From the NCBI GenBank assembly GCA_019695175.1, contig JAIBAM010000028.1, positions 1 through 32,615 of the forward strand: a DNA stretch of 32,615 nt. Reading direction: 5' to 3'. The position numbers and the translations under genes were made by a program. This document shows positions 415-21,651 of this stretch, in pieces. Position 1 is the first letter of the stretch, and each line of letters starts with the position of its first letter. This DNA comes from Bdellovibrionales bacterium. Lineage in GTDB: Bacteria > Bdellovibrionota > Bdellovibrionia > Bdellovibrionales > UBA1609. The notes beneath the pieces are model-generated. The model was not told where the DNA came from, did no database searches, and saw only the letters and a program-made list of their open reading frames with translations.

Positions 415-1572
415 TTAAAAGAAACAAAAATCGATTTGAAGCTGACAAGGGACAGCTCTGTTTTTAAGTTGAGCCACTTTGGGGAGCAATTCTGCTTTTC
501 TAATTTGATTTAGGATTTGAAACGATTGGGTAAACTCCCCTTGTTTGAGTAAGGCATAAGCACGCGCATAACGTGAATCATCTGTTTCTTCCAACTGTGA
601 GGGTACTTTAAGGGAAGCGATCAGAGGGTACTTAGATTGGTTAACGTAGGATGTTAAACGAAGGCGGAATTTATCATTAATATTATTTATCCAGAGACTG
701 GCATAGGCAGACTGTTGATGTTCACCTAGCAAGCGATGGAATTCTGCCACATGGTAATAATATTTGGGATCAAGAAGAGCCGCTTTTTTAAAATAATAAA
801 GTACGGATTTCATAGCACCTATTTCATAATAGGTTTGAGCCGCAAGAATAAAAACGCTTAAATTATGCGGAAACAAGAGTTGTGCCAGTTCAATGAGGGC
901 GAGGCCTTCATGGGTAAAATGATGGGATTTGAATAATTCAAAAATATTTTGTAGCTGATCAGTCGTTAAACCTTCAAATTTTGAAAAAAAAATTTTTAAA
1001 GCGGTTTGTGGCAAAGAAAGCTTTAAAAGAAGTGCCATTTGTTCTCTGAATATAGGAAAGGATTCTTTTTGATTTTGGGAGGTCTGGTAGTTCTGGCCCT
1101 TCTGCAAGGAATCCCAGGCTTTGGCTTCCTTCTGTAGGACAAATTCACATCGTGATTTTTGTAAAATGGTTTTTTCGCTTTGCCGCCACAGTAATCCACT
1201 TTCTTGATAGTATTTGTCGCAGAGGTTGAAATCATTTTTTCCGTAGGAAGCCTGAGCCATTTTTAACTGACGTTCTAAAGAGTGTGGCGCCTTTTTATAG
1301 CTAAATAATGCCTGATCCCAACGATTTTGAGCGGCATAAAAATCACCTTGCACCAAAAAATCAGTGGAGTGAAGTTGAGTTTTATTTATCTCTTGCTCGG
1401 CCAAATCAAAACGTTGGTCCAATATTAACTGTTTTATAAGATGAATCCCTTCAAGTTCATCGTAGATAGGATCCTGTACGCTTGCTAAACAGGAAGAATC
1501 GAAACAATAAATAAATAAATAAATAGAAACTATAATCCATGTATAAAAAAATTTCTTTTTTGAAAAATTCAT
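415..1572 (-). CDS. Exported TPR protein, last gene of the TonB block
   Basis: A 385-residue protein with a basic N-terminus and a hydrophobic segment (residues 8-30) that looks like a signal peptide. The rest is helical with tetratricopeptide-like pairs, for example DFYAAQNRWDQALFSYKKAP (about 77-96) and the stretch ending in YFKKAALLDPKYYYHVAEFH in the second half. Start ATG is preceded by AGGAG at good spacing. It lies 56 nt downstream of tonB in the same direction. TPR proteins are regular partners of TonB2/TtpC-type clusters, so I infer a periplasmic scaffold of this energy-transduction system. The exact role is unknown, and the C-terminal tail (AVPCQLQIDFCFF) is unusual. TPR assignment is fairly safe, function is not. 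Confidence 0.75.
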   Translation of the reverse strand: MNFSKKKFFYTWIIVSIYLFIYCFDSSCLASVQDPIYDELEGIHLIKQLILDQRFDLAEQEINKTQLHSTDFLVQGDFYAAQNRWDQALFSYKKAPHSLERQLKMAQASYGKNDFNLCDKYYQESGLLWRQSEKTILQKSRCEFVLQKEAKAWDSLQKGQNYQTSQNQKESFPIFREQMALLLKLSLPQTALKIFFSKFEGLTTDQLQNIFELFKSHHFTHEGLALIELAQLLFPHNLSVFILAAQTYYEIGAMKSVLYYFKKAALLDPKYYYHVAEFHRLLGEHQQSAYASLWINNINDKFRLRLTSYVNQSKYPLIASLKVPSQLEETDDSRYARAYALLKQGEFTQSFQILNQIRKAELLPKVAQLKNRAVPCQLQIDFCFF

Positions 1573-1628
1573 AAATATAGCTCCTATAAATCTAAAGCAA
1601 AAGTTTAATACAATGGCTTCATTTCAAC

Positions 1629-2249
1629 TTAGTCCAGTTCAAATTTGAACTTTTGCGTGATCCATGCGGATACAAACTTTCCACCAACTTGGGCGGGAGT
1701 AAACTTCCAAGCATGAATGGCTTTAAGTGCCACTTGATCAAAATATCCTTTTGGCTGACTGTCTTCTACATTCACCACCTCAATGGCTCCATTTTCACTC
1801 ACTTTAATTTTTAAAGTGACAAATCCTGTGATTCCTCTGGAACGAGCTTCTTGAGGGTACTCAGGAGGATTTTTAAAAGAGGCTTGGGGTGGGCGATCTG
1901 GCGCATTTTCATTTTTCATTATTTGATGGGGGTCGCTACCGAATCCCCCTCCTCCCGCCAAACCAGATCCCGAATTTTGACCTGAAAATGCCATTCCCCC
2001 CAACGAGACAAAGTTTTCCGCCTGGAGTGTGGGAGCTAAATCCTGACTCGAATTTGGGGAGGGGGTTTTTTTGAGTTCAGGAGGAGGTTGGGAAGTGGGG
2101 GGGAGTTGTACAGGAATAGAGGAATTTTTTTTGCTTGCTAAGGGGTTTGAAAGAAGTGACGGATCTAAAGCAAAAATATTGGCAATGAGAGCAAGGGCCA
2201 TCACTAATAGACCGGCCGAAGTAATTAGAAATAAAAATCTTTTTAACAA
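1629..2249 (-). CDS. tonB: TonB-family energy transducer
   Basis: A 206-residue protein with classic TonB order: one N-terminal membrane anchor (about 4-26), a proline-rich periplasmic stretch (46-65, including PVQLPPTSQPPPELKKTP), a glycine-rich hinge (GLAGGGGFGSD, about 97-107), and a C-terminal TonB domain (about 125-206) with the PPEYPQEARSRGITGFV entry and KAIHAWKFTPA core. TonB spans the periplasm and passes proton-motive force from ExbB/ExbD to outer-membrane receptors. Start is TTG with GGAAGG upstream at suitable spacing; no ATG alternative keeps the anchor. It sits 42 nt after the TtpC-like gene and in the same operon as exbB, exbD and a receptor, so it probably serves that receptor. 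The anchor lacks an obvious SxxxH motif as in E. coli TonB, typical of divergent TonBs. Confidence 0.9.
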   Translation of the reverse strand: MLKRFLFLITSAGLLVMALALIANIFALDPSLLSNPLASKKNSSIPVQLPPTSQPPPELKKTPSPNSSQDLAPTLQAENFVSLGGMAFSGQNSGSGLAGGGGFGSDPHQIMKNENAPDRPPQASFKNPPEYPQEARSRGITGFVTLKIKVSENGAIEVVNVEDSQPKGYFDQVALKAIHAWKFTPAQVGGKFVSAWITQKFKFELD

Positions 2250-2291
2250 ACAAACCTTCCAAATTTAAGTTTAAAAACTAAAAGAAAAAAT

Positions 2292-3086
2292 TTAGATCTT
2301 AATGAGCATCGCAAAAAGGGCGGTAATAAATCCTAAAACTATGGCTAAAAAGAGAATGGGTCCTAAGTCAGCCAATTTTTCAATCCAAGAGCTGGCATAG
2401 GAAATACGTGCTGCCTCGTTCAAGTTTCCAATCAGATACCACTGATTATTTTGACTCTTTTGAATTAACTTGAGCGGACCTTTACCGTAGGGCTTTAATG
2501 GTTTTAGCGATTCGTTGGAGTCCTTTAAAAAAGCAGTGACGGTGCCTTGCCTGACCAGCGACCCTTTTTGTAAGTGATCCTTTTCATCTAAAAAATATCC
2601 TGTAAACTCCTCTTCTTGAGCTGAAGACTTGAGTAAAAGCAGGGCCTTTGTAAAAAGAGAATCTAAGTTTGCTAAACTGATTGAATCACTGGACAGAACC
2701 GTTTCATTAGATTTTTCCCAGTTAAAATGCAGTTCATTTTCCTTTTGCTGCAAAAAGGAGTTCATTTTTGTGTATAAATTTTGAGTAAATGATTCTTGTT
2801 GACCTAGAGACTTTATTCTTTTTTCAATTTTTTGTAGTCTTTCGAATTGCACGTCATTTTCTGCAGATTGTTGGCTCACCTCTTGCTGCATTTTCTCGAC
2901 TAAATGTTTGAGTTGGGAAATTCTTTGAGTAAAAGTTTTTTCCATTTGTGCTTTTTGCTTTAATAAACTTTCCTTTTGATAATTCAAATCACTCCATTCA
3001 TTTTGAATGAGCTGGGGTAAAGAGGTTTCTGTAGCAAATAGAGATAGGGGAAAGAGGAATAAGTTGAGGAAAAAAAGATGTTTCAT
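2292..3086 (-). CDS. TtpC-like periplasmic coiled-coil protein with a single C-terminal membrane anchor
   Basis: 264 residues: signal peptide (1-18, ending LFATE), long coiled coil (about 28-125, rich in K/E/Q heptads), a globular part with FTGYFLDEKDHLQKGSLVRQ near the middle, and one terminal membrane helix (about 241-264, GPILFLAIVLGFITALFAML), after which the protein ends. In TonB2 systems TtpC carries such a coiled-coil periplasmic region fused to an ExbB-like three-helix domain. Here the ExbB-like part is missing and a separate exbB lies upstream, so this looks like the periplasmic half of a split TtpC. The start overlaps the stop of the DUF3450-like gene by 4 nt (ATGA), implying translational coupling. 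Family call is by pattern and context, not a search. Confidence 0.65.
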   Translation of the reverse strand: MKHLFFLNLFLFPLSLFATETSLPQLIQNEWSDLNYQKESLLKQKAQMEKTFTQRISQLKHLVEKMQQEVSQQSAENDVQFERLQKIEKRIKSLGQQESFTQNLYTKMNSFLQQKENELHFNWEKSNETVLSSDSISLANLDSLFTKALLLLKSSAQEEEFTGYFLDEKDHLQKGSLVRQGTVTAFLKDSNESLKPLKPYGKGPLKLIQKSQNNQWYLIGNLNEAARISYASSWIEKLADLGPILFLAIVLGFITALFAMLIKI

Positions 3087-3844
3087 AAATCCTTCTTTGA
3101 TGAAAGTTCTGAAAAAAGACTAAAAGAATAAAGTCCAGAGTCTTTTTTAGTTTTTAAATTTTCCATGAGACGGGAAATTTCATTTTGTTTTTCACTGCTT
3201 AGTATTTCCTGCCAGCGCCATTGATTTTGGATTTGAAGCAGTTGCTTAAAAGAGCCTTTGGTGTCCTTGATAAAAAGAGTGAACAATCCCAGGCGCACGA
3301 TTTCAAATTTTTCACTTTGACTTTGTCCGTCTAAAGTCCCAAGGATGTACTCGTGGGAGTTCACCTTTTTAAATTCCTCTTGATAAAAATTCCAAATATC
3401 ATTGGCGATAAATTCCAGGTTTTCTTGATTTTTTTGTAATCGCGCGGCGAAACTTTTAACGGTTTCCAATCTTTGTTCTCGATGGAAGGGGAGAGAGTCT
3501 TGGATCCAACCTTGTAATTGAACTATCCTTTGCAGATAAGATTTTTTAACTTTTTCTATTTGAGGAGTTATTGCTGCAAGGGACGACAAGCGAGTGAGTT
3601 TTTCTTTAATCTGAATTTTCCTTAAACTTTCTTTTTGTAAAGCCGCTTCCAATTCCAACTTTTTTTGTAACCAAATGTCCAATTCAGCTTGATATTGTTT
3701 GTTAGATCCTTCCATTTCTCGACCCAAATTTTCCAACTGTAGACGAAGATCAATAATTTCTTTCACTTTTGAATTGGGGACATTGATCGTTTCCGCAAAT
3801 GAAAAAAAGTTTAAAAAAAATATTAAATAAAAAAATTGAAGCAT
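3083..3844 (-). CDS. DUF3450-like periplasmic coiled-coil protein
   Basis: 253 residues with a signal peptide (1-17, LNFFSFAE), a long coiled coil (about 25-110), then a segment typical of DUF3450: IQDSLPFHREQRLETVKSFA (about 113-132), followed by an E-rich helix and a small C-terminal part containing GQSQSEKFEIVRLGLFTLFI. DUF3450 proteins are found beside TtpC, ExbB, ExbD and TonB in TonB2-type clusters and are thought to be periplasmic partners of that complex. Here the gene lies between exbD (15 nt upstream) and the TtpC-like gene (4-nt overlap), matching that arrangement. No membrane anchor besides the signal peptide. The role in energy transfer is inferred from context. Confidence 0.75.
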   Translation of the reverse strand: MLQFFYLIFFLNFFSFAETINVPNSKVKEIIDLRLQLENLGREMEGSNKQYQAELDIWLQKKLELEAALQKESLRKIQIKEKLTRLSSLAAITPQIEKVKKSYLQRIVQLQGWIQDSLPFHREQRLETVKSFAARLQKNQENLEFIANDIWNFYQEEFKKVNSHEYILGTLDGQSQSEKFEIVRLGLFTLFIKDTKGSFKQLLQIQNQWRWQEILSSEKQNEISRLMENLKTKKDSGLYSFSLFSELSSKKDL

Positions 3845-3859
3845 AGGGATTTTCTCCTT

Positions 3860-4279
3860 TTAATCGATGGCGTCAACGGGTTGATCAGTGGTGACTGAAA
3901 AATTTTTAACTCCACTGGACTTAACCCAATCCAAAACCTTAATGACTTTTCCATAGGGTAAACTGCGATCGGCAATGATGATGGCTTGAACTTCAGGATT
4001 GCGTTGAAACTCCACTAAAGCCTGATCCTTTACTTTTGTCTCATCGGCGACCTCATTATTAATCATCACTTGTCCTTCACCGGTAATTGCTATGTTGAGT
4101 AGGCTCGGTTCTGTGGAGTCTCCGTGGGAGGCCTCGGGTAAATTGACCTCGATACTGGGTTTTACCAGCGCAGGGGCTGTCACCATAAAAATAATTAGAA
4201 CTACAAGTACAATGTCTACAAGAGGAACAACATTTATTTCAGAAATGGTATCCATACTATCACTTGTTTTGCTTGCCAC
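3860..4279 (-). CDS. exbD: ExbD/TolR-family proton-channel subunit
   Basis: 139 residues when started at GTG 4279. The open frame extends to 4333, but that part lies inside exbB. GGAAGGGG sits 6 nt before the GTG, leaving 1 nt after the exbB stop, so I chose the internal GTG. The protein has a short cytoplasmic N-terminus, one membrane helix with the essential aspartate in context (VVPLVDIVLVVLIIFMVTAP, Asp about residue 20), and a periplasmic domain ending with the typical ADRSLPYGKVIKVLDWVKSS stretch. ExbD pairs with ExbB in the inner membrane to convert proton flow into TonB motion. Translational coupling to exbB is likely. Confidence 0.92.
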   Translation of the reverse strand: MASKTSDSMDTISEINVVPLVDIVLVVLIIFMVTAPALVKPSIEVNLPEASHGDSTEPSLLNIAITGEGQVMINNEVADETKVKDQALVEFQRNPEVQAIIIADRSLPYGKVIKVLDWVKSSGVKNFSVTTDQPVDAID

Positions 4280-4280
4280 T

Positions 4281-4904
4281 TTAATTCCCCTTCCTTTTTG
4301 CAAAAGCCATGGAGGCCTCTTTAAAAGTTTCAATACCAGAAATGATGGACTTGACCTGTTTTTGAAAAAAATTGAATGCCAAAATATTAGGTATGGCGAC
4401 TAAGAGTCCAGCAGCTGTCGCTATGAGTGCTCCAGATATTCCTGCCATCACAGTCTGTTGTCCGGCATTGGTAGATGAAGCCAAGTCATTGAAGGATTTC
4501 ATAATGCCGAGAACCGTACCAAAAAGCCCTATATACGGAGCATTGGATCCAATTGTTGCTAAAAAAGTCAGAGATTTTTCCAATCGTGGCTGTTCGAATT
4601 TTATGAAAGTGTTGAATTGCTCTTCCAATCCATTGATTCCTGAAATTTTAATATGGGAGAGGGCGCGAGTCATAATTTTGGCTTCAAGGGAATCGGGTAA
4701 GAGTTCTGTTTTGTCGAGAGGAAATGAAGGATCTGAAAGGGCCAGTTCCAATTTATTTTTCTGCAGCTTACTGATTTTAAATATTTTACCTAATACAAAA
4801 AATCTTTCAATAATGACCAGGAGACTGGTCAAGCTAAGTAGGATGAGTAAGTATAAAACGGCTTGATCTGCAAGATGGGCCATCGCAAAAATTCGTTCTT
4901 TCAT
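4281..4904 (-). CDS. exbB: ExbB/TolQ/MotA-family proton-channel subunit
   Basis: 207 residues, the usual size of compact ExbB2-type proteins. Three membrane helices: about 15-37 (VLYLLILLSLTSLLVIIERF), about 118-138 with the conserved GLFGTVLGIMKSF loop, and about 152-176 (GISGALIATAAGLLVAIPN). The last two motifs are diagnostic of ExbB/TolQ. Start ATG is preceded by AAAGGAA. It forms the channel with ExbD, encoded 1 nt downstream. The TtpC-like protein lacks this domain, so this is the only ExbB-type protein in the block and should serve the single TonB. Confidence 0.93.
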   Translation of the reverse strand: MKERIFAMAHLADQAVLYLLILLSLTSLLVIIERFFVLGKIFKISKLQKNKLELALSDPSFPLDKTELLPDSLEAKIMTRALSHIKISGINGLEEQFNTFIKFEQPRLEKSLTFLATIGSNAPYIGLFGTVLGIMKSFNDLASSTNAGQQTVMAGISGALIATAAGLLVAIPNILAFNFFQKQVKSIISGIETFKEASMAFAKRKGN

Positions 4905-4916
4905 AAAGAGATTCCT

Positions 4917-5630
4917 TTATTCCTCTGCTTTGAGGTTTTGGAGTAATTCAACAATATCTGGTTGGTTGGTTTGTAGGGCTAGTTTAAGGGGCTTAATATT
5001 ATCTTTGTTGGGTAAATTGATATTAGTATTGGTGATTCCATAGGGGTCCTCCCATTGAGCAATAATTTGAATGCTGACCTTTTTTTTTTTGAGAATGGCT
5101 AGAGTGAGTGGAGTTTCACCGTCATCTGTTAAAAAGTTGGGATTCACCCCTTCATCTTGCAAAAGTTTGGTCAGAGGATCCGCACTTCCTCGATTGAGGA
5201 ATTTTAAAAATTGTACTTTTAATTGATTTTGTCTTTCCAAGTCCAAAAGAGTCCACACTCGCGAAATTTCTTTTTCTCGAGCATAATCAAGAGCTGTTTT
5301 TCCCGTATTGTCTTTTAGATTAATATCAGCATTATTTTTTAAAAATAAATCGACCAGAGTTACTCTTGTCTGGAGTGTGCTTTCTATAAGAGCCGATCTT
5401 CCATCTTCAAATTGAGAATTAATTGGGAAACCTTCTTTTAATAACTCCAAAACTTGAGTGGTAGAGTCGGAGGCAATGGCCTCTCTCATTTTACCTAAGG
5501 GATCGGTGGATTTTTGCCCTTGATGATCGTTATTGGTGGCTCGATACATATAATTTGAGGATTCGTGTTGCCCACACCCTCCATTTATAATGGAGAACAA
5601 AAATATAAAAATAATTCCACCATAAAACAT
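4917..5630 (-). CDS. Exported ankyrin-repeat protein, possible lipoprotein
   Basis: 237 residues. The N-terminus is hydrophobic and ends in NGGC (Cys 19), which may be a lipobox, though position -3 is unusual; otherwise a normal signal peptide. From about 45 onward there are ankyrin repeats: DGRSALIESTLQTRVTLVDL, NADINLKDNTGKTALDYARE, and DDGETPLTLAILKKKKVSIQ, followed by NKDNIKPLKLALQTNQPDIV. Ankyrin repeats bind proteins. Lying between the receptor (27 nt upstream) and exbB (12 nt downstream) suggests a periplasmic binding partner of the receptor or energy complex, which is not a usual component of TonB clusters. The ribosome binding site contains a run of eight G (see 5640-5647). Confidence 0.8.
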   Translation of the reverse strand: MFYGGIIFIFLFSIINGGCGQHESSNYMYRATNNDHQGQKSTDPLGKMREAIASDSTTQVLELLKEGFPINSQFEDGRSALIESTLQTRVTLVDLFLKNNADINLKDNTGKTALDYAREKEISRVWTLLDLERQNQLKVQFLKFLNRGSADPLTKLLQDEGVNPNFLTDDGETPLTLAILKKKKVSIQIIAQWEDPYGITNTNINLPNKDNIKPLKLALQTNQPDIVELLQNLKAEE

Positions 5631-5639
5631 ACTTGAAAT

Positions 5640-5647
5640 CCCCCCCC
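5640..5647 (-). repeat. Poly-G (G8) tract upstream of the ankyrin gene, part of its ribosome binding site
   Basis: The plus strand has eight consecutive C; on the coding strand this is G8 inside AGAGGGGGGGG, 9 nt before the ankyrin ATG, in the 27-nt gap between receptor and ankyrin genes. It provides the Shine-Dalgarno sequence. Homopolymeric G tracts can vary in length by slipped-strand mispairing, which here would change RBS spacing. Confidence 0.6.
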
Positions 5648-5657
5648 TCTCAATTTT

Positions 5658-8210
5658 TTAAAAAACAGCACTCATATTCAAAGCGGCGTACCTTTTGCGA
5701 TGAGTGGAGCGCACAAGCTCATCACCTTGTTTGGCCTCAATCGCAGGATCCAGTAAATTAGCGATTTTAAATCCCAGATTCCAGGTCTTATATATTTTTT
5801 TACTAGCCACAAAATCCACTTGATGAATGGTCTGCTCATAAGTATCGGGGCGTTGATTAGTTCCAACTTCGGTAATTCGTGGTCCAACAGCATTGTAAAG
5901 TAGAGTGGCAGAAAGTCCCCAAAGCGGTCGATCATATTGAATTTGAAAATTAACTACAAAAGGAGACTGCCCTTGTAGAGGTCGGGAATCTGTAGTTTGA
6001 ATCCCTCTATTGTCAGGCGAGAGTTCAATTTGGGATTTAATTAGGGTGAGATTTCCCAGTAAGGACCAGCGCCTGAGTGAGCGGGAAACACGACGCAATC
6101 CAATCCTGGATTCAAATTCTAAACCAAAATTAGTTGCTGAGCTGGCATTGGCAAAGGTTTGTATATTATTAACACCTGGCTTAAACATCACTTCTATGGG
6201 GTTTATAAATTTTTTGTAAAATCCGGCAAGGGACACATATTCATCCGTGGTTAAATAATATTCCCAGCGATGGTCTATATTTTTAATGAGCGTTCCTTTA
6301 AGATGGGCATCTCCCTCCACCAAGTATCCCGTTTCATCATCAATAAAACCCACTTCAGAGAGTTCACGAAAGTCAGGTCGGGCTAGGGTTTCACTATACA
6401 CCCAACGGGCGCGCCATTGATCAGTGGGCTTCCAAGTGAGTGAGTACATTGGTAAAAGATCTTTCATGACCAAGTCGGATCGAGTCAGAGGATGATTTTG
6501 ATCATAGTAATAAAAGGTCTGAACCGTCTGATGGGATTTCTCTTGGCGAGCGCCCCACTGTAGAGTCCAATTTTTGTGGGGTTCATACTCCAGTGAAAAG
6601 TATTGTGCAGTAAGGTCTTGTTTTCCTGAGTAGCTATCAGCTGCATCGGTAATGTTCTGCAGTTGGTACTTTCCAGAATCGATATTTTCTGCTTGAAATT
6701 GCATTTCCGGAGGATCGGCTAAGCGAATCGAGGGGGAGGAATCAAAGTCTCTAGCAAAATAAAGTCTAAAGACATCTGATTTACGCTGGCGTTGCAAAAC
6801 CATTAGGCCCCATTTACTTTTAATGGGTAATGCAGGCAAAAAAACGGGAAAGGATAAGTCTAAGCCTAATTCAGTGGATTGGTCGCTTAGATCTGAGTAG
6901 GTGCGTCGGTTTCCATCACTTCCACCTCGAATTTGATAGGAATCTGTAGTTCGATCGTAAGAATAATCGCGGCGGTCAGGTTGTTTGCGCGAAGCATTTG
7001 ATTGTCCCACCCGCCACTGTAGACCCACGGGTTTTTTATTGATTTCAAATTCACTTTTACCTTGTAGTTGATGGGTCCAGAGTTGTCTCTCTGTCCATTC
7101 TAAAGTGGTGGATTCGGTTGTTGAAGGGGAATTAATTTCATTTTTGTTATCCAATTGAGTTAAATTGGAGCTGTGTCGTAATAAAAATGAATTCAAACTA
7201 ATTTGATGTTGATGATTCCAATCAAAACCCAGTTGTACAGATCCTGCCAACTTATTTTCAACCAGGGAATACTGGGTATTTTTTTCTGAATCCAGTTCGA
7301 GTCGATTTTGACTTCCTACATTATAAGTACGAGAGAGTTTTTTTCCATCAGTGAAATCTTGACCATAAAGAAAAGAGGAGGAAGAGCCAAAGCTGCCCCC
7401 TAAAAGTTGGAAGCGATTTCCTATGGCTAAAGTCAATCCGGGTATTTGAGGTGAAGTATCAGAAGAAACTTGATAATGGTTAGGCAAGGACCGACCCATT
7501 TGAGTCAGTTCTTCGCGAGGGACTCCATTTGTAATACCAGGTTGCAAAGGGATTAATTTTTTACCAGATTTTAAATGGTTTAATATAGAATTTGGCATTT
7601 TTCGGCCGCCATCATCCACGCCTAGCCAATCCCATTTACCTCCATAATAAGACAGAGAATTATTTCGGGACTCTAAGTTGGATGAGAGGCTCGCCTTAAA
7701 GAAGAATTGCTCGGGTAGAGATTTTGTATAAAGTTGAATGAGTCCTCCGCCAAATTCAGCCGGATACTCTGGAGAAAAGCTTTTTTGTACGGTGATACTT
7801 TCCATGGTGGAGGAAGGGAAAAGATCCATGGGAACCACTCTTCTTGAAGGTTCAGGACTGGGTAAATTAAATTGATTCATTTGCACACTGGAGTAGCGCT
7901 CCCCCAAGCCCCTCACATAAATAAACTTACCTCCCATAAGGGTAAGTCCGGTCACCCGACGTAAAGACGTTGCGACTTGACTGTCGCCAGATCTGGCCAT
8001 TTGCTCAGACCCAAGAACTTCACTAACATTGTTTGATTTTTTTCTGGATTCAACCAGGAGAGCCGTTGAACCTTTAATTTTTGGAGCCAAAATTAAAACC
8101 TCATCTAACTCATTTTGTTGAGTTGCAAAAGACTTGGGGGAATTAAGAATTCCCCCAAGCATGATCAGATAAAGACAATTTTTAAAACAATATTTTCTTT
8201 TAATGATCAT
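5658..8210 (-). CDS. TonB-dependent outer-membrane receptor
   Basis: 850 residues. Signal peptide (about 1-29, ending SFA), then a TonB-box-like stretch (DEVLILAP, about 36-43), a plug domain (about 60-165) with VSEVLGSEQMARSGDSQVAT, the motif YVRGLGERYSSVQMNQFNLP, SPEPSRRVVPMDLFPSSTME, and the closing EFGGGLIQLYTK, and then a beta barrel ending in Phe (NMSAVF) as expected for insertion by the BAM complex. The plug type resembles a broad group of receptors of unknown substrate; no siderophore-, B12- or sugar-specific feature is visible. It is preceded by the beta-helix gene (48 nt) and followed by ankyrin and the TonB machine, so the block carries both the receptor and its own motor. Substrate unknown. 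Confidence 0.92.
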   Translation of the reverse strand: MIIKRKYCFKNCLYLIMLGGILNSPKSFATQQNELDEVLILAPKIKGSTALLVESRKKSNNVSEVLGSEQMARSGDSQVATSLRRVTGLTLMGGKFIYVRGLGERYSSVQMNQFNLPSPEPSRRVVPMDLFPSSTMESITVQKSFSPEYPAEFGGGLIQLYTKSLPEQFFFKASLSSNLESRNNSLSYYGGKWDWLGVDDGGRKMPNSILNHLKSGKKLIPLQPGITNGVPREELTQMGRSLPNHYQVSSDTSPQIPGLTLAIGNRFQLLGGSFGSSSSFLYGQDFTDGKKLSRTYNVGSQNRLELDSEKNTQYSLVENKLAGSVQLGFDWNHQHQISLNSFLLRHSSNLTQLDNKNEINSPSTTESTTLEWTERQLWTHQLQGKSEFEINKKPVGLQWRVGQSNASRKQPDRRDYSYDRTTDSYQIRGGSDGNRRTYSDLSDQSTELGLDLSFPVFLPALPIKSKWGLMVLQRQRKSDVFRLYFARDFDSSPSIRLADPPEMQFQAENIDSGKYQLQNITDAADSYSGKQDLTAQYFSLEYEPHKNWTLQWGARQEKSHQTVQTFYYYDQNHPLTRSDLVMKDLLPMYSLTWKPTDQWRARWVYSETLARPDFRELSEVGFIDDETGYLVEGDAHLKGTLIKNIDHRWEYYLTTDEYVSLAGFYKKFINPIEVMFKPGVNNIQTFANASSATNFGLEFESRIGLRRVSRSLRRWSLLGNLTLIKSQIELSPDNRGIQTTDSRPLQGQSPFVVNFQIQYDRPLWGLSATLLYNAVGPRITEVGTNQRPDTYEQTIHQVDFVASKKIYKTWNLGFKIANLLDPAIEAKQGDELVRSTHRKRYAALNMSAVF

Positions 8211-8258
8211 AATTCCATAAACCGTAAATCATTGGATTCCCTTAAAGGGTACATTAGT

Positions 8259-9608
8259 TTAGTGAGCTTTATTGGACCATCCCAAGGACCAATCTTCATC
8301 TGCATAAGGGCTAAAAGCTCCTATAAAGTCCACGGGAGTGAACTGCCAAGAACCACTGACAACAGGGACTTTTCCTGCGCCAACGACTGGACTGGTTTCT
8401 TCTGGTAAATAAAAATCAATTAGTTTTGGGTCCACGATTTGGTTAGCGTTTTCATTATTAATTCCTTTAAACCAAGAACTCACAGGATAGAGATCAGTGG
8501 CTTGTTCATCAAAATTATTTCCGGCATCACATTTGACTAATGTGTTTACAATTTTAGTTCCAGTTTGAACCACTCCATTTTCTGCTTTAGTACCGGCAAA
8601 TCTAAAGGTTTCTTCGTCATCCAAATTGATACAGGCCACTTTAAATGTTCCAGTCACAATGGTGTTGTAAATTTGAGCGCCAGTTCCACGACGCAATAAA
8701 ATTCCACTAAATAATCGAGGATTTTTTTCGTTATGCCCAACAATAGTTACGTTAGAAAGAGTTGGGTTGGAACGTGGCTCAGCTGTCATGGGTGATTTTA
8801 AATTATCAGCTTCAATTCCGTTGGATTCTTCAGATCCATTATTAACATCAATCCATACAAATTGAGCGTAACCTCTCCAACCCATATCCCAATCTAGACC
8901 ATCGTCGTCACTATCACTAATAATGATATGACGAAGATTGACCGTTCCCCCAAAAACCTCAATGCCATCATCTGCACTTCTCAGTATTTGGACATAGTCA
9001 ATCTCGGTAGCAGAACCAACTCCGTAGAGCGTGAGACCATTGAGTTCATTGTCTTTAGAAAGTTCATAACCAGCGTACTCAATTCGGGTGTATTTAATCT
9101 TACCAGAATTGTCAGCGTCATTATTTCCCCCGAACAAGGGAACATTTTCTTTAATTCCCTCATCGCTTCCTTCACAAACGGAGGTTCCCGGTTTACAGTT
9201 GTTGATTCTAGCATTGCCGTTGACAACCACACCACCCCACAAGCCGGGTCTTAAATTTTCCCTTTGTAGTGCGGTGAACACGACCGGTGCGACGGACGTT
9301 CCATTGGCGTAAATTTTTGAACCACGAAGGATCACTAAAAAGGATCCCGGAGCACCATATATTGTTGTTCCCGGCTCAATGTTCAAAATCGATGAATTAT
9401 TATTGTCGCCACCGAATCGAGTGTCGCCTTCTAGAACATAAGAAAAATCTGATTTTAAATTGAGAATTTCATTGAGATGGTTACCACTGAGAGTGCATGA
9501 GGGCTTTCCACCTATGTTTTCATTTCGTGCAGTTGTATTGTTAGGACAAGCAAGAGCCTTCCAAGATAACAAAATTATTGTCGACACAAAGAAATTTTTC
9601 AATTTCAT
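8259..9608 (-). CDS. Secreted right-handed beta-helix protein, first gene of the TonB block
   Basis: 449 residues. Signal peptide with ALA-C cleavage site (Cys 21; it may be a lipoprotein, but the lipobox is poor). The mature part has repeated G/N-rich beta-strand turns: GTTIYGAPGSFLVILRGSKI, PGLWGGVVVNGNARI (121-135), FGGNNDADNSGKIKYTRIEY (159-178), GIEVFGGTVNLRHIIISDSD, and an Asp-rich DSDDDGLDWD (232-241) that may bind calcium. This type of beta-helix protein occurs near TonB-dependent receptors in other bacteria, to my recollection, but I know no assigned function. SD AAGGGGA lies before the ATG. As the first gene it likely carries the operon promoter in 9609-9756. I infer a surface or periplasmic partner of the receptor, perhaps a substrate-binding protein. 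Confidence 0.8.
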   Translation of the reverse strand: MKLKNFFVSTIILLSWKALACPNNTTARNENIGGKPSCTLSGNHLNEILNLKSDFSYVLEGDTRFGGDNNNSSILNIEPGTTIYGAPGSFLVILRGSKIYANGTSVAPVVFTALQRENLRPGLWGGVVVNGNARINNCKPGTSVCEGSDEGIKENVPLFGGNNDADNSGKIKYTRIEYAGYELSKDNELNGLTLYGVGSATEIDYVQILRSADDGIEVFGGTVNLRHIIISDSDDDGLDWDMGWRGYAQFVWIDVNNGSEESNGIEADNLKSPMTAEPRSNPTLSNVTIVGHNEKNPRLFSGILLRRGTGAQIYNTIVTGTFKVACINLDDEETFRFAGTKAENGVVQTGTKIVNTLVKCDAGNNFDEQATDLYPVSSWFKGINNENANQIVDPKLIDFYLPEETSPVVGAGKVPVVSGSWQFTPVDFIGAFSPYADEDWSLGWSNKAH

Positions 9609-9756
9609 TATATTCCCCTTATTGTTTTGGTTGTTTCTTGTGTGATTAATAATTGATAATTAAATATTTGCGAAATCAGAAAAGAGTTAGGTCATTTGTA
9701 AAAAACTAACCATTTCCTAAAAAATAGGGCTTTGTTCTGCTTTGAGGGGGGAGTAA

Positions 9757-13760: not shown

Positions 13761-14888
13761 TCACTGTTCTAGTAGTAGCCTGATATTTTTACTGAAATAA
13801 TATCCTTCTTTTGCACGAAAAATGTACTTTGGTTTATTAAAATCAGGCTCAATTAATTTTCGCAATCTTTTTATTGTGACATAAATTTTGTTATCATGAA
13901 CTGTTGGATCGTAATGCTGTTGCCAGACCATTTCAACAAGTGCCTCTTTGCTATAAATTTCTCCTGGGTTATTAATAAATAATCGCAGGAGGTCAATCAG
14001 AATAAACTGATTGTTAAATTGAACGACTCCTTTTTTACTTTCAAAAAGAGATTTTGTTGTGGAATTAAAAATCATATCATAGTGGTGATTTGGGTTTTGT
14101 ATAGGACGTAGCAGGCGTTCATCCAGTCTTCTTGAGAAGTAGCGTAGATTTTCAGGATCAATTGTTTTTTTTACGAGGTTTAAATAGGTTCGTCCTAAGG
14201 TATCTTCCCCAGCATCAAGATGTGTGATTCCAATGGCATAAATAATATTCATATACATATAGAGATTTTTTTGTTCTTTTAGGGAAGAGTAGGCTTGCCA
14301 AAACTTTTCTAAAGCCGCAATAAATTTTTTATTTTTCCTTAATATATGTCCACTCATTATTTGAGCAGATATTTGTAACTCTGGAATTTGAATGTACTGC
14401 AGCGAGGTTTCCAGATTTTGAATTTCCTTCGCTGAATCTTCCAGTCGATTGAGGGCAAAATAAATCACTGCCAACCCATGAATGGCATAACAGATTTCTT
14501 TTTGCTTCTTAGAGGCAAGCGCGAGCGACAAGGATTGTTCTAAATACTGGAGAGCCAAAGCATTTTCGTTTTTATAGGACGCACAAAGGGCTAGAGTATA
14601 ATAAATTTTTGAATTTAATTGTAAGGACCCAGCGGAGACGAGCCACTGTAGCTTTTCTTTTATTCCTTGAATTCCCGATTCATTTTCCATTTCAGCGAAG
14701 ACACGGAGAAGCAAATTTTGACAGTTTAAGTATTTAGAGAAGTTTTTTTCATGTTCAAATCCTTGCGAAGCTTCTAAAAGGATGGGCGTTGCTTTTTTAA
14801 AATCACCTCGATCACAGAGAAGTTTTGCAAAATCCAGTAAATTTTGATTTTTGCATTTGTTTATTTTATCTAATTTTTTTATAGACAA
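13761..14888 (-). CDS. TPR protein with C-terminal OmpR-type winged-helix DNA-binding domain
   Basis: 375 residues. The N-terminal part (about 15-265) is helical with TPR-like pairs (DFAKLLCDRGDFKKATPILL, YYTLALCASYKNENALALQY, ALEKFWQAYSSLKEQKNLYM). Residues 274-366 match the OmpR/PhoB effector domain: strand, FILIDLLRLFINNPGEIYSK, ALVEMVWQQ, a recognition helix HDNKIYVTIKRLRKLIE (331-347), and a wing YIFRAKEGYYF. There is no receiver domain. TPR first and DNA-binding last is the reverse of SARP/AfsR order. Start is TTG with GAGGTGGGG upstream. First gene of the operon; probably senses a protein or peptide signal and may autoregulate through the palindrome at 14971-14991 (inference). Confidence 0.82.
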   Translation of the reverse strand: MSIKKLDKINKCKNQNLLDFAKLLCDRGDFKKATPILLEASQGFEHEKNFSKYLNCQNLLLRVFAEMENESGIQGIKEKLQWLVSAGSLQLNSKIYYTLALCASYKNENALALQYLEQSLSLALASKKQKEICYAIHGLAVIYFALNRLEDSAKEIQNLETSLQYIQIPELQISAQIMSGHILRKNKKFIAALEKFWQAYSSLKEQKNLYMYMNIIYAIGITHLDAGEDTLGRTYLNLVKKTIDPENLRYFSRRLDERLLRPIQNPNHHYDMIFNSTTKSLFESKKGVVQFNNQFILIDLLRLFINNPGEIYSKEALVEMVWQQHYDPTVHDNKIYVTIKRLRKLIEPDFNKPKYIFRAKEGYYFSKNIRLLLEQ

Positions 14889-20358: not shown

Positions 20359-21651
20359 ATGAAAGAGACTGGACAACTTCTAAAAAATCGTCGCGAAGAA
20401 TTAAAGGTTTCCATTGCAGAAGTCTCCATTTCTACAAAAATCACACCTCGAATGCTCCAAGCTATAGAGAATGGAGAGATGACTCGTCTTCCGGCTCGAA
20501 CTTTTTTGCGGGGTTTTGTAAAGTCCTATGCACTTTTTTTGAAAATGAATGTGGAAACTACTTTAGAAAAGTTCAATTTAGAAATGGATGCGCTTTTGCC
20601 GCAACCCGTTTTTCCAGCACGGGATATTGAAAGCTCTTCAGAAGGTGGTGTGAAAAGTCTGATGCCTTCAGAAGATGGTCGAAGTCCAGAGGGATCCCAT
20701 GATCGAACTCAATCTGGTGTGAGAAGTGAAAGTCCCTCTACTAAGATAACCCCGCCCCTTTGGGAACGGAACCCCACAAAATTACAAAAAGTTTTTTTTG
20801 TTTGTGGTTTTTTGGGTCTTTTTATATCAATTTTTTTTGTTTATAAGATGGTGCAAAAATACGAAAGAGAGGGGTATGTGGAAAAGGAGTTGGTCACGGA
20901 TCCAACAGCTCTTCCCAAAGGGTCCACGCCAACCCTTGAAGCTCAAAGCAATTCGACTCTTGAAAGTAAAGAGAGTTTACAAAAAACACATGATTCTGAT
21001 TTGAAGTCTGCCCTGAAGGAAGAGCAAGAACTTCCAGCTAAACCCACAGCCAAGCCTACAGCTCCTTTGGTTGTTGAATCCAAACCTCAAACAATCACAG
21101 ATCCTGCCACTTCTCAGACAAACTCTTTGGAAAAAAATAGAGATCAAAATATTAAAACACCTCCGCATGTGAATACTCAACCCGTAAAGACTTCAGAACC
21201 GAGTCAGCCATCCGAGAGAAACCAACTTGAGAAAACTCAACTTGAGAAAGCTCCACTCGAGAGAAATCAAATAGTGAAGACTCAACCACAGAAGATTCAA
21301 CCGCAAGAGATTAAGGCACCAGCTTCAGTTCTAGAAGCTAAAACCTCATCATCACCGTCGTCTTCAATCAAATCACCTGAGGTTAAGTTGGAGAATGCAA
21401 AAAAGGAAAATGAAAAAAAAACCAATGAAATTATTGTGGAGGCTTTAGATAAAGTAAATTTGGTATTTAAATTGGAAAATGGTCAAGAGCGACGGGTTTC
21501 TTTGCTTCATGATCAAGTCCATACCCTAAAGGCTGTTGGTAAAGTTATTATCGAAATAAGTGATGGCGGAGCGGTGAATATTGTATACAACGGTCGTGAT
21601 ATAGGAGTTCCAGGGGAGCTAAAGCAACCTAAAAAAATGACGCTTCAATAA
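20359..21651 (+). CDS. RodZ-like membrane protein with N-terminal HTH
   Basis: 430 residues. N-terminal HTH of the RodZ type (about 3-70: TGQLLKNRREELKVSIAEVS, ITPRMLQAIENGEMTRLPAR, TFLRGFVKSYALFL), a low-complexity stretch, one membrane helix (about 144-164), a long Ser/Pro/Gln/Lys-rich periplasmic linker (about 175-345) with a 15-bp tandem repeat, and a C-terminal beta domain (about 365-430) ending GRDIGVPGELKQP, like DUF4115 of RodZ. RodZ links MreB to the wall-building machinery. There are no mre genes in the window, so a true RodZ role is unproven. SD AAGGAAA before the ATG, 29 nt after the TPR lipoprotein. Confidence 0.85.
   Translation: MKETGQLLKNRREELKVSIAEVSISTKITPRMLQAIENGEMTRLPARTFLRGFVKSYALFLKMNVETTLEKFNLEMDALLPQPVFPARDIESSSEGGVKSLMPSEDGRSPEGSHDRTQSGVRSESPSTKITPPLWERNPTKLQKVFFVCGFLGLFISIFFVYKMVQKYEREGYVEKELVTDPTALPKGSTPTLEAQSNSTLESKESLQKTHDSDLKSALKEEQELPAKPTAKPTAPLVVESKPQTITDPATSQTNSLEKNRDQNIKTPPHVNTQPVKTSEPSQPSERNQLEKTQLEKAPLERNQIVKTQPQKIQPQEIKAPASVLEAKTSSSPSSSIKSPEVKLENAKKENEKKTNEIIVEALDKVNLVFKLENGQERRVSLLHDQVHTLKAVGKVIIEISDGGAVNIVYNGRDIGVPGELKQPKKMTLQ
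21208..21312 (+). repeat. 15-bp tandem repeat in the RodZ-like linker (7 imperfect units)
   Basis: Seven imperfect 15-bp units encode five-residue repeats: PSERN, QLEKT, QLEKA, PLERN, QIVKT, QPQKI, QPQEI. The pattern is in frame, so unit gain or loss would only change linker length. Units 2 and 3 differ by two bases or fewer, showing recent duplication. Confidence 0.75.

Follow-up and report, generated by a model that had tools for sequence, protein, structure and literature searches.

What a TonB-energised import cluster takes up when it carries its own receptor together with a beta-helix protein and an ankyrin protein is the question raised by contig JAIBAM010000028.1 of a Bdellovibrionales bacterium (assembly GCA_019695175.1), a stretch of 32,615 nt that was analysed in full (the window) and represents one whole contig of a 2.6-Mb genome. 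From position 9608 down to 415 on the (-) strand, nine open reading frames (ORFs) run in one direction in the order beta-helix protein (BH), TonB-dependent receptor, ankyrin-repeat lipoprotein (Ank), ExbB, ExbD, TtpB, short TtpC, TonB and TtpD, with intergenic gaps of 48, 27, 12, about 1, 15, -4, 42 and 56 nt from the end of BH to the last gene. The ORF coordinates thus confirm the layout described in an earlier note on this DNA (nine same-direction genes, gaps mostly below 60 nt and a 4-nt overlap). Judged from gene content, the block is a real, conserved import cluster of which BH and Ank are true members, and it is likely to be one phosphate-starvation import machine, composed of an ElpS-type BH, the receptor, Ank and a complete TonB2/TonB3-type energiser.

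A search of the phylum, taken here as Bdellovibrionota, found BH in 35 of 291 genomes, and 34 neighbourhoods were compared, with genes labelled by BLAST and by hidden Markov models built from the matches. When clusters cut by contig ends were excluded, the nine-gene set recurred in 28 unbroken clusters from many genera, which argues that the block is not a chance arrangement. Two gene orders prevail, the window type described above (order A, n = 13) and BH-TtpB-TtpC-ExbB-ExbD-TonB-TtpD-receptor-Ank (order B, n = 14), and one further cluster is a variant (L054/L080). BH is present in 28/28 and Ank in 26/28 of the unbroken clusters; as these clusters were located through BH, its presence is by construction, and only the Ank count and a control set serve as independent tests. 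Genome searches recovered some genes overlooked by ORF picking (BH in L044, TtpB in L046 and L064), while ExbB in L052 and TonB in L039 were not recovered. For the control, ten DUF3450 loci with strong scores were taken from the phylum, and all proved to be ordinary ttp clusters (receptor plus ttpB-ttpC-exbB-exbD-tonB-ttpD), most with an adjacent large ORF at the receptor position. Neither BH (0/10) nor Ank (0/10) occurs in them, so both belong to this cluster type and not to ttp clusters generally. These counts bear out the proposal of the earlier note that BH and Ank are constant members of one dedicated machine, and an absence of the two genes from related clusters, which it had named as refuting, was not encountered. 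Its description of the ankyrin protein as undescribed also still fits, since Ank was found, among the loci examined, only in clusters of this phylum, where its relatives have lipobox-like N-termini and commonly contain the motif C-[GE]-x-H. Comparative gene content shows that BH, receptor, Ank and the complete energiser are inherited together. DUF3450 proteins also seem to fall into two classes phylum-wide: those of the ten ordinary clusters score above 160 bits, those of the BH clusters about 24-115 bits.

The AlphaFold2 model of BH is a right-handed beta-helix (mean predicted local distance difference score, pLDDT, 90; predicted template modelling score, pTM, 0.90), preceded by a signal peptide that ends with ..KALA and is followed by CP; Cys21 and Cys38 are conserved in the family alignments. 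Fold searches returned many unrelated beta-helix proteins (Foldseek with low TM; VIA with Z up to 23), including NosD, AlgE4, AlgG, tailspikes and PL6 at similar Z, so the fold gives no function, and a specific enzyme function for BH derived from it was rejected as unsupported, only generic beta-helices having been matched. Comparison with Pfam, NCBIfam and PDB sequences assigned BH to no family, and a profile search gave only weak, chance-like matches to GlmU. In the conserved residues DDxxE/DDxxDW/ExD, a Ca2+-binding arrangement resembling the one in pectate lyase Pel9A is a speculative candidate.

The relatives of BH are more informative. A scan of named genomes found at least 79 BH loci, spread over Gamma-, Alpha- and Betaproteobacteria, Myxococcota and others, and BH is also encoded on Bacteroidota plasmids. 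Among the matches listed, 67 loci lie outside the phylum, where BH is in many cases a lipoprotein of one to three beta-helix domains and usually adjoins a receptor, often together with ttpB-ttpC-exbB-exbD-tonB-ttpD in order B; several gammaproteobacterial homologues (L074, L113, L142 and others) are lipoproteins of up to ~1400 aa with two or three tandem beta-helix domains. The window BH likewise adjoins its receptor, across the gap at 8211-8258. Five alphaproteobacterial loci (L103, L108, L112, L114 and L116) have the order BH-receptor-gsp, and type II secretion genes were identified separately in L103. This is the order of elpS-cc0171-gspC in Caulobacter, where ElpS (CC0170) is a surface lipoprotein made under phosphate starvation and adjoins the TonB receptor gene cc0171 and gspC-N (PMC2996285). 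ElpS has been described as conserved in Shewanella and Bacteroides, and the distribution of BH (Shewanella, alphaproteobacteria, Bacteroidota) matches the one given for it (PMC2996285). Similar proteins are the surface lipoproteins FI, FII and FIII of Flavobacterium johnsoniae, with a reported 31-36% identity to the Caulobacter protein, which are strongly induced by low phosphate (FI being the most abundant exoprotein), have a pectate-lyase/polygalacturonase-like fold and are encoded beside TonB-dependent transporters in the clusters PUSIII and PUSIV (PMC8115612). BH is therefore tentatively assigned to the ElpS/FI-FIII phosphate-starvation family by its distribution and by BH-receptor-gspC synteny, and the view of BH as an undescribed subunit is not supported. 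A lipobox is present in gamma- and alphaproteobacterial members and in ElpS itself (LAGC; PMC2996285), whereas the window BH (..KALAC-P) has a plain signal peptide and is without one, for which reason it is called ElpS-like; since its close relatives also lack a lipobox, this trait does not clearly define the family.

A link to phosphate, missed by the earlier note, appears in the pho/pst neighbours and Pho boxes of these relatives. Outside the phylum, pst or pho genes lie within 10 kb of BH in about 13 of the 67 loci, compared with a chance expectation near 1% per locus that is a rough estimate and was not computed, several loci being close relatives. In four Alteromonadaceae (L085, L105, L113 and L142), phoB-phoR-pstS are directly upstream of BH; PhoR and pst genes stand beside it in the Lysobacterales loci L091 and L093, and a PhoX-like gene and pstSCAB in Nitrosomonas (L081 and L084). 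Further linked loci are L095, L100, L103, L109 and L112, and the organisms with pst genes near BH include Kordiimonas, Aliidiomarina and a Pseudomonadales metagenome-assembled genome. Outside the phylum, Pho-box scores are higher upstream of BH than upstream of the remaining genes of those loci (Mann-Whitney p 1.5e-14), with only 4 of 58 regions above the 98th control percentile, in part because the controls include real Pho boxes, such as that of a pstS promoter (L091_10). Within the phylum, an E. coli-type Pho-box matrix gave no signal before BH, and a local box, CTGACAnAAtCCTGACA, learned solely from pstS promoters of the same order, is enriched there (p 5.2e-9; 16/34 exceed the 95th percentile set by 97 control promoters); because the loci are related, both p-values overstate independence. 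On another contig, the genome of the window encodes pstSCAB and phoU, beside which stands a PhoB/PhoR-like pair whose matches to these two families fall below the NCBIfam cut-offs. The sequence TAACTnnnnTCTGA, which was picked after the fact, is common to the site in the window's BH promoter and to its own pstS promoter. The substrate class suggested by these comparisons is probably phosphorus.

Several observations weigh against phosphorus import. The window's own BH promoter scores no better than the controls (1.8 bits, close to their median), a looser generic pattern is not enriched genome-wide (15 matches versus 12 for a control pattern), and neither the window nor the surroundings of the clusters in this phylum yielded a pst operon. 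In Caulobacter, cc0171 is reportedly not under phosphate control, and intracellular phosphate was seen to stay unchanged (PMC2996285); the ElpS label given to BH comes from distribution and synteny. The weakness of the window's Pho-like site and the lack of pst neighbours in the phylum would suit the same machine retuned in the window's lineage to a glycan or prey-derived polymer, with the beta-helix binding or cutting polysaccharide, as would the nearest folds (polysaccharide lyases, epimerases and tailspikes). We consider such retuning unlikely, as relatives within the phylum show enrichment of the local Pho box ahead of BH, a common beta-helix fold does not show function, and no recurring carbohydrate-enzyme neighbour was seen, although no systematic search was made for one.

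Still less probable is a machine like TonB2 of Vibrio, dedicated to the uptake of iron or siderophores and switched on when iron is limiting. The set TtpB, TtpC, ExbB, ExbD, TonB and TtpD does import siderophores in Vibrio (PMC6957404), but Fur and Zur boxes before BH are not enriched over control genes in the same loci, the Fur-box score failing to exceed control inside or outside the phylum; the gene linkage found is to pho/pst; and the ordinary ttp clusters, which might serve iron, are without BH and Ank. A further reading, in which the receptor and BH would sense phosphate starvation or assist phosphatases instead of importing a substrate, has in its favour that ElpS overproduction increased extracellular alkaline phosphatase activity (PMC2996285). 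This reading is very improbable, since ElpS was still produced when cc0171 had been deleted (PMC2996285) and the co-inherited complete energiser points to transport.

The energiser differs from the familiar type in its motor. TtpC is short in all 13 order-A clusters, with 253-284 aa (one ORF extended to 360) versus 402-483 aa otherwise. That of the window aligns to full TtpC over columns 5-271 of 452, namely the N-terminal half (hhalign, prob 99.9, E 1e-32), and has no PF01618 match, being without the MotA/ExbB domain. The trees place order-A ExbB in one clade (support 100/100), which groups with a genomic paralogue and TolQ and is split (99/96) from classical ExbB, order-B ExbB and the TtpC domains; the PDB sequences closest to the window ExbB are also TolQ, while the TolQ label of the own-genome tree row was taken from a Tol-Pal-like gene layout and not from a family search. 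The exact source of order-A ExbB calls for caution because of long branches in these trees. The idea that it is a split-off half of TtpC was rejected on the same trees. The closest genomic paralogue of the window ExbB is encoded in an exbB/exbD pair at a contig end (L195, 4418-5480). In the BH tree, order A forms one clade (98/95) among order-B sequences, with weak deeper forks. The simplest reading is one event in the window's lineage, in which the cluster was rearranged, the original ExbB was swapped for a TolQ-side ExbB and TtpC shed its own ExbB-like half. Both the missing half of TtpC and the different ExbB lineage had escaped the earlier note, which called the gene TtpC-like. The TonB3 system of Vibrio vulnificus has an order-B-like gene order and a full TtpC, and the window differs from it in its order A and other ExbB lineage.

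Measured against the Vibrio TonB2/TonB3 type, the window has all of TtpB, TtpC, ExbB, ExbD, TonB and TtpD in one cluster, but not the C-terminal MotA/ExbB domain of TtpC nor an ExbB of the classical ttp-cluster lineage, and its order exbB-exbD-ttpB-ttpC-tonB-ttpD replaces the ttpB-ttpC-exbB-exbD-tonB-ttpD retained in order-B relatives. TonB3 of V. vulnificus resembles it in combining a receptor with the six-gene energiser set (ttpB3-ttpC3-exbB3-exbD3-tonB3-ttpD3) and was reported not to transport iron compounds; no BH or ankyrin gene was reported for it (PMC6957404). The TonB2 operon of that species, in which TtpB2 and TtpD2 are essential, contains the same six components but no receptor, and serves iron-regulated siderophore uptake with a putative Fur site (PMC6957404). 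The Caulobacter pair, similar in placing a BH-type protein beside a TonB receptor in a phosphate-starvation context, is followed by type II secretion genes instead of ttpB-ttpD and has no ankyrin protein (PMC2996285), and the F. johnsoniae clusters were described without ExbB, ExbD, TonB or Ttp proteins, PUSIII carrying proteins with type IX secretion domains (PMC8115612). The ElpS-receptor pair and the TonB3-type energiser are already known, while the joining of a dedicated TonB2/TonB3-type energiser to that pair, the ankyrin lipoprotein and the lineage-specific motor exchange look new; no description of this gene combination was found in the open-licence literature.

As a phosphate-starvation import machine, the block would, we infer, be transcribed as a single unit. 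BH may reside on the cell surface, or be released from it, and capture, or help to process, a phosphorus-containing molecule that porins cannot admit because of its size and that the receptor, pulled by TonB at its DEVLILA box, would pass into the periplasm. ExbB-ExbD would convert the proton gradient into force, TtpB, truncated TtpC and TtpD may form a periplasmic scaffold between motor and TonB, and Ank may be a periplasmic adaptor near the receptor; phosphate freed by phosphatases would then enter through PstSCAB. ElpS-type proteins are among the most induced in phosphate-starved bacteria. That BH is inherited with a receptor and a TonB energiser of its own suggests a part for these proteins in energised import, and the cluster provides a compact set of genes for testing this. 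The motor exchange further suggests that more than one ExbB lineage can work with the TtpB-TtpD scaffold, and that TtpC can in some settings do without its ExbB-like half; this bears on why TonB2-type systems have two ExbB-like proteins. More tentatively, and with somewhat less than even confidence, the cluster may represent a self-contained phosphorus-import machine that occurs widely in proteobacteria and Bdellovibrionota. In it, a private TonB motor would belong to an ElpS-like surface BH and its receptor, and one lineage would have swapped this motor for a TolQ-like one, leaving TtpC as a motorless scaffold; if true, a phosphorus-type substrate is predicted for orphan TonB3-like systems with a BH gene.

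Table 1. Genes of the block and the putative site ahead of it, in order of transcription (domain labels from Pfam and NCBIfam searches of the window proteins)
Feature	Position	Strand	Basis
Degenerate Pho-box-like sequence CTAACTCTTTTCTGATT (putative)	9674..9690	(-)	65 nt ahead of BH start codon
BH, secreted right-handed beta-helix, ElpS-like, 449 aa	8259..9608	(-)	AlphaFold2 model, fold matches, family alignments, synteny
TonB-dependent receptor, 850 aa, Plug + barrel	5658..8210	(-)	PF07715, PF00593
Ankyrin-repeat lipoprotein (Ank), 237 aa, ..NGGCGQHE	4917..5630	(-)	PF12796 E 6e-17
ExbB, TolQ-side lineage (order-A clade), 207 aa	4281..4904	(-)	PF01618, best PDB matches TolQ, trees
ExbD, GTG start	3860..4279	(-)	PF02472
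TtpB-like DUF3450 protein, 253 aa	3083..3844	(-)	PF11932, 35.2 bits vs 32.6 cut-off
Short TtpC, 264 aa, periplasmic half + one transmembrane segment	2292..3086	(-)	Profile alignment to full TtpC
TonB, 206 aa	1629..2249	(-)	PF03544 E 3e-18
TtpD-like helical-repeat protein, 385 aa, last gene of the block	415..1572	(-)	Position + homology across clusters

The start of ExbD is most likely GTG 4279 (139 aa, preceded by AAGGAAGGGG) instead of TTG 4333. For BH, the TtpC-like protein and the last gene, neither Pfam nor NCBIfam offers a curated family, and the receptor matches TIGR01782 below the cut-off. The last gene had been called a TPR gene; its relatives align with proteins at the TtpD position, and no TPR model exceeds the Pfam cut-off, the only sub-threshold match being ANAPC3 at 0.0062. 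The TonB-box-like DEVLILA at residue 36 of the receptor is a single observation, because a regular-expression search for the box in the receptors of relatives was mostly unsuccessful. Predicted internal promoters and terminators in the block (19 vs 23.7 and 11 vs 9.9 in shuffled sequences) are not in excess, so they neither support nor break co-transcription, and an Rfam scan gave no match.

Divergent from BH, and sharing with it an upstream region of ~148 nt, is a gene for a predicted secreted staphylococcal-nuclease homologue (PF00565; 9757-10239, (+)), which could supply a phosphorus-scavenging system. Elsewhere, the window encodes a regulator in which TPR-like repeats precede a C-terminal winged helix of the OmpR type (PF00486) and no receiver domain was found (13761-14888, (-)), a RodZ-like protein with HTH_25 and a long Lys/Pro/Thr/Ser-rich middle (20359-21651, (+)), and a lipoprotein-like product containing a domain of glycoside hydrolase family 5 (PF00150; 30703-32403, (-)).

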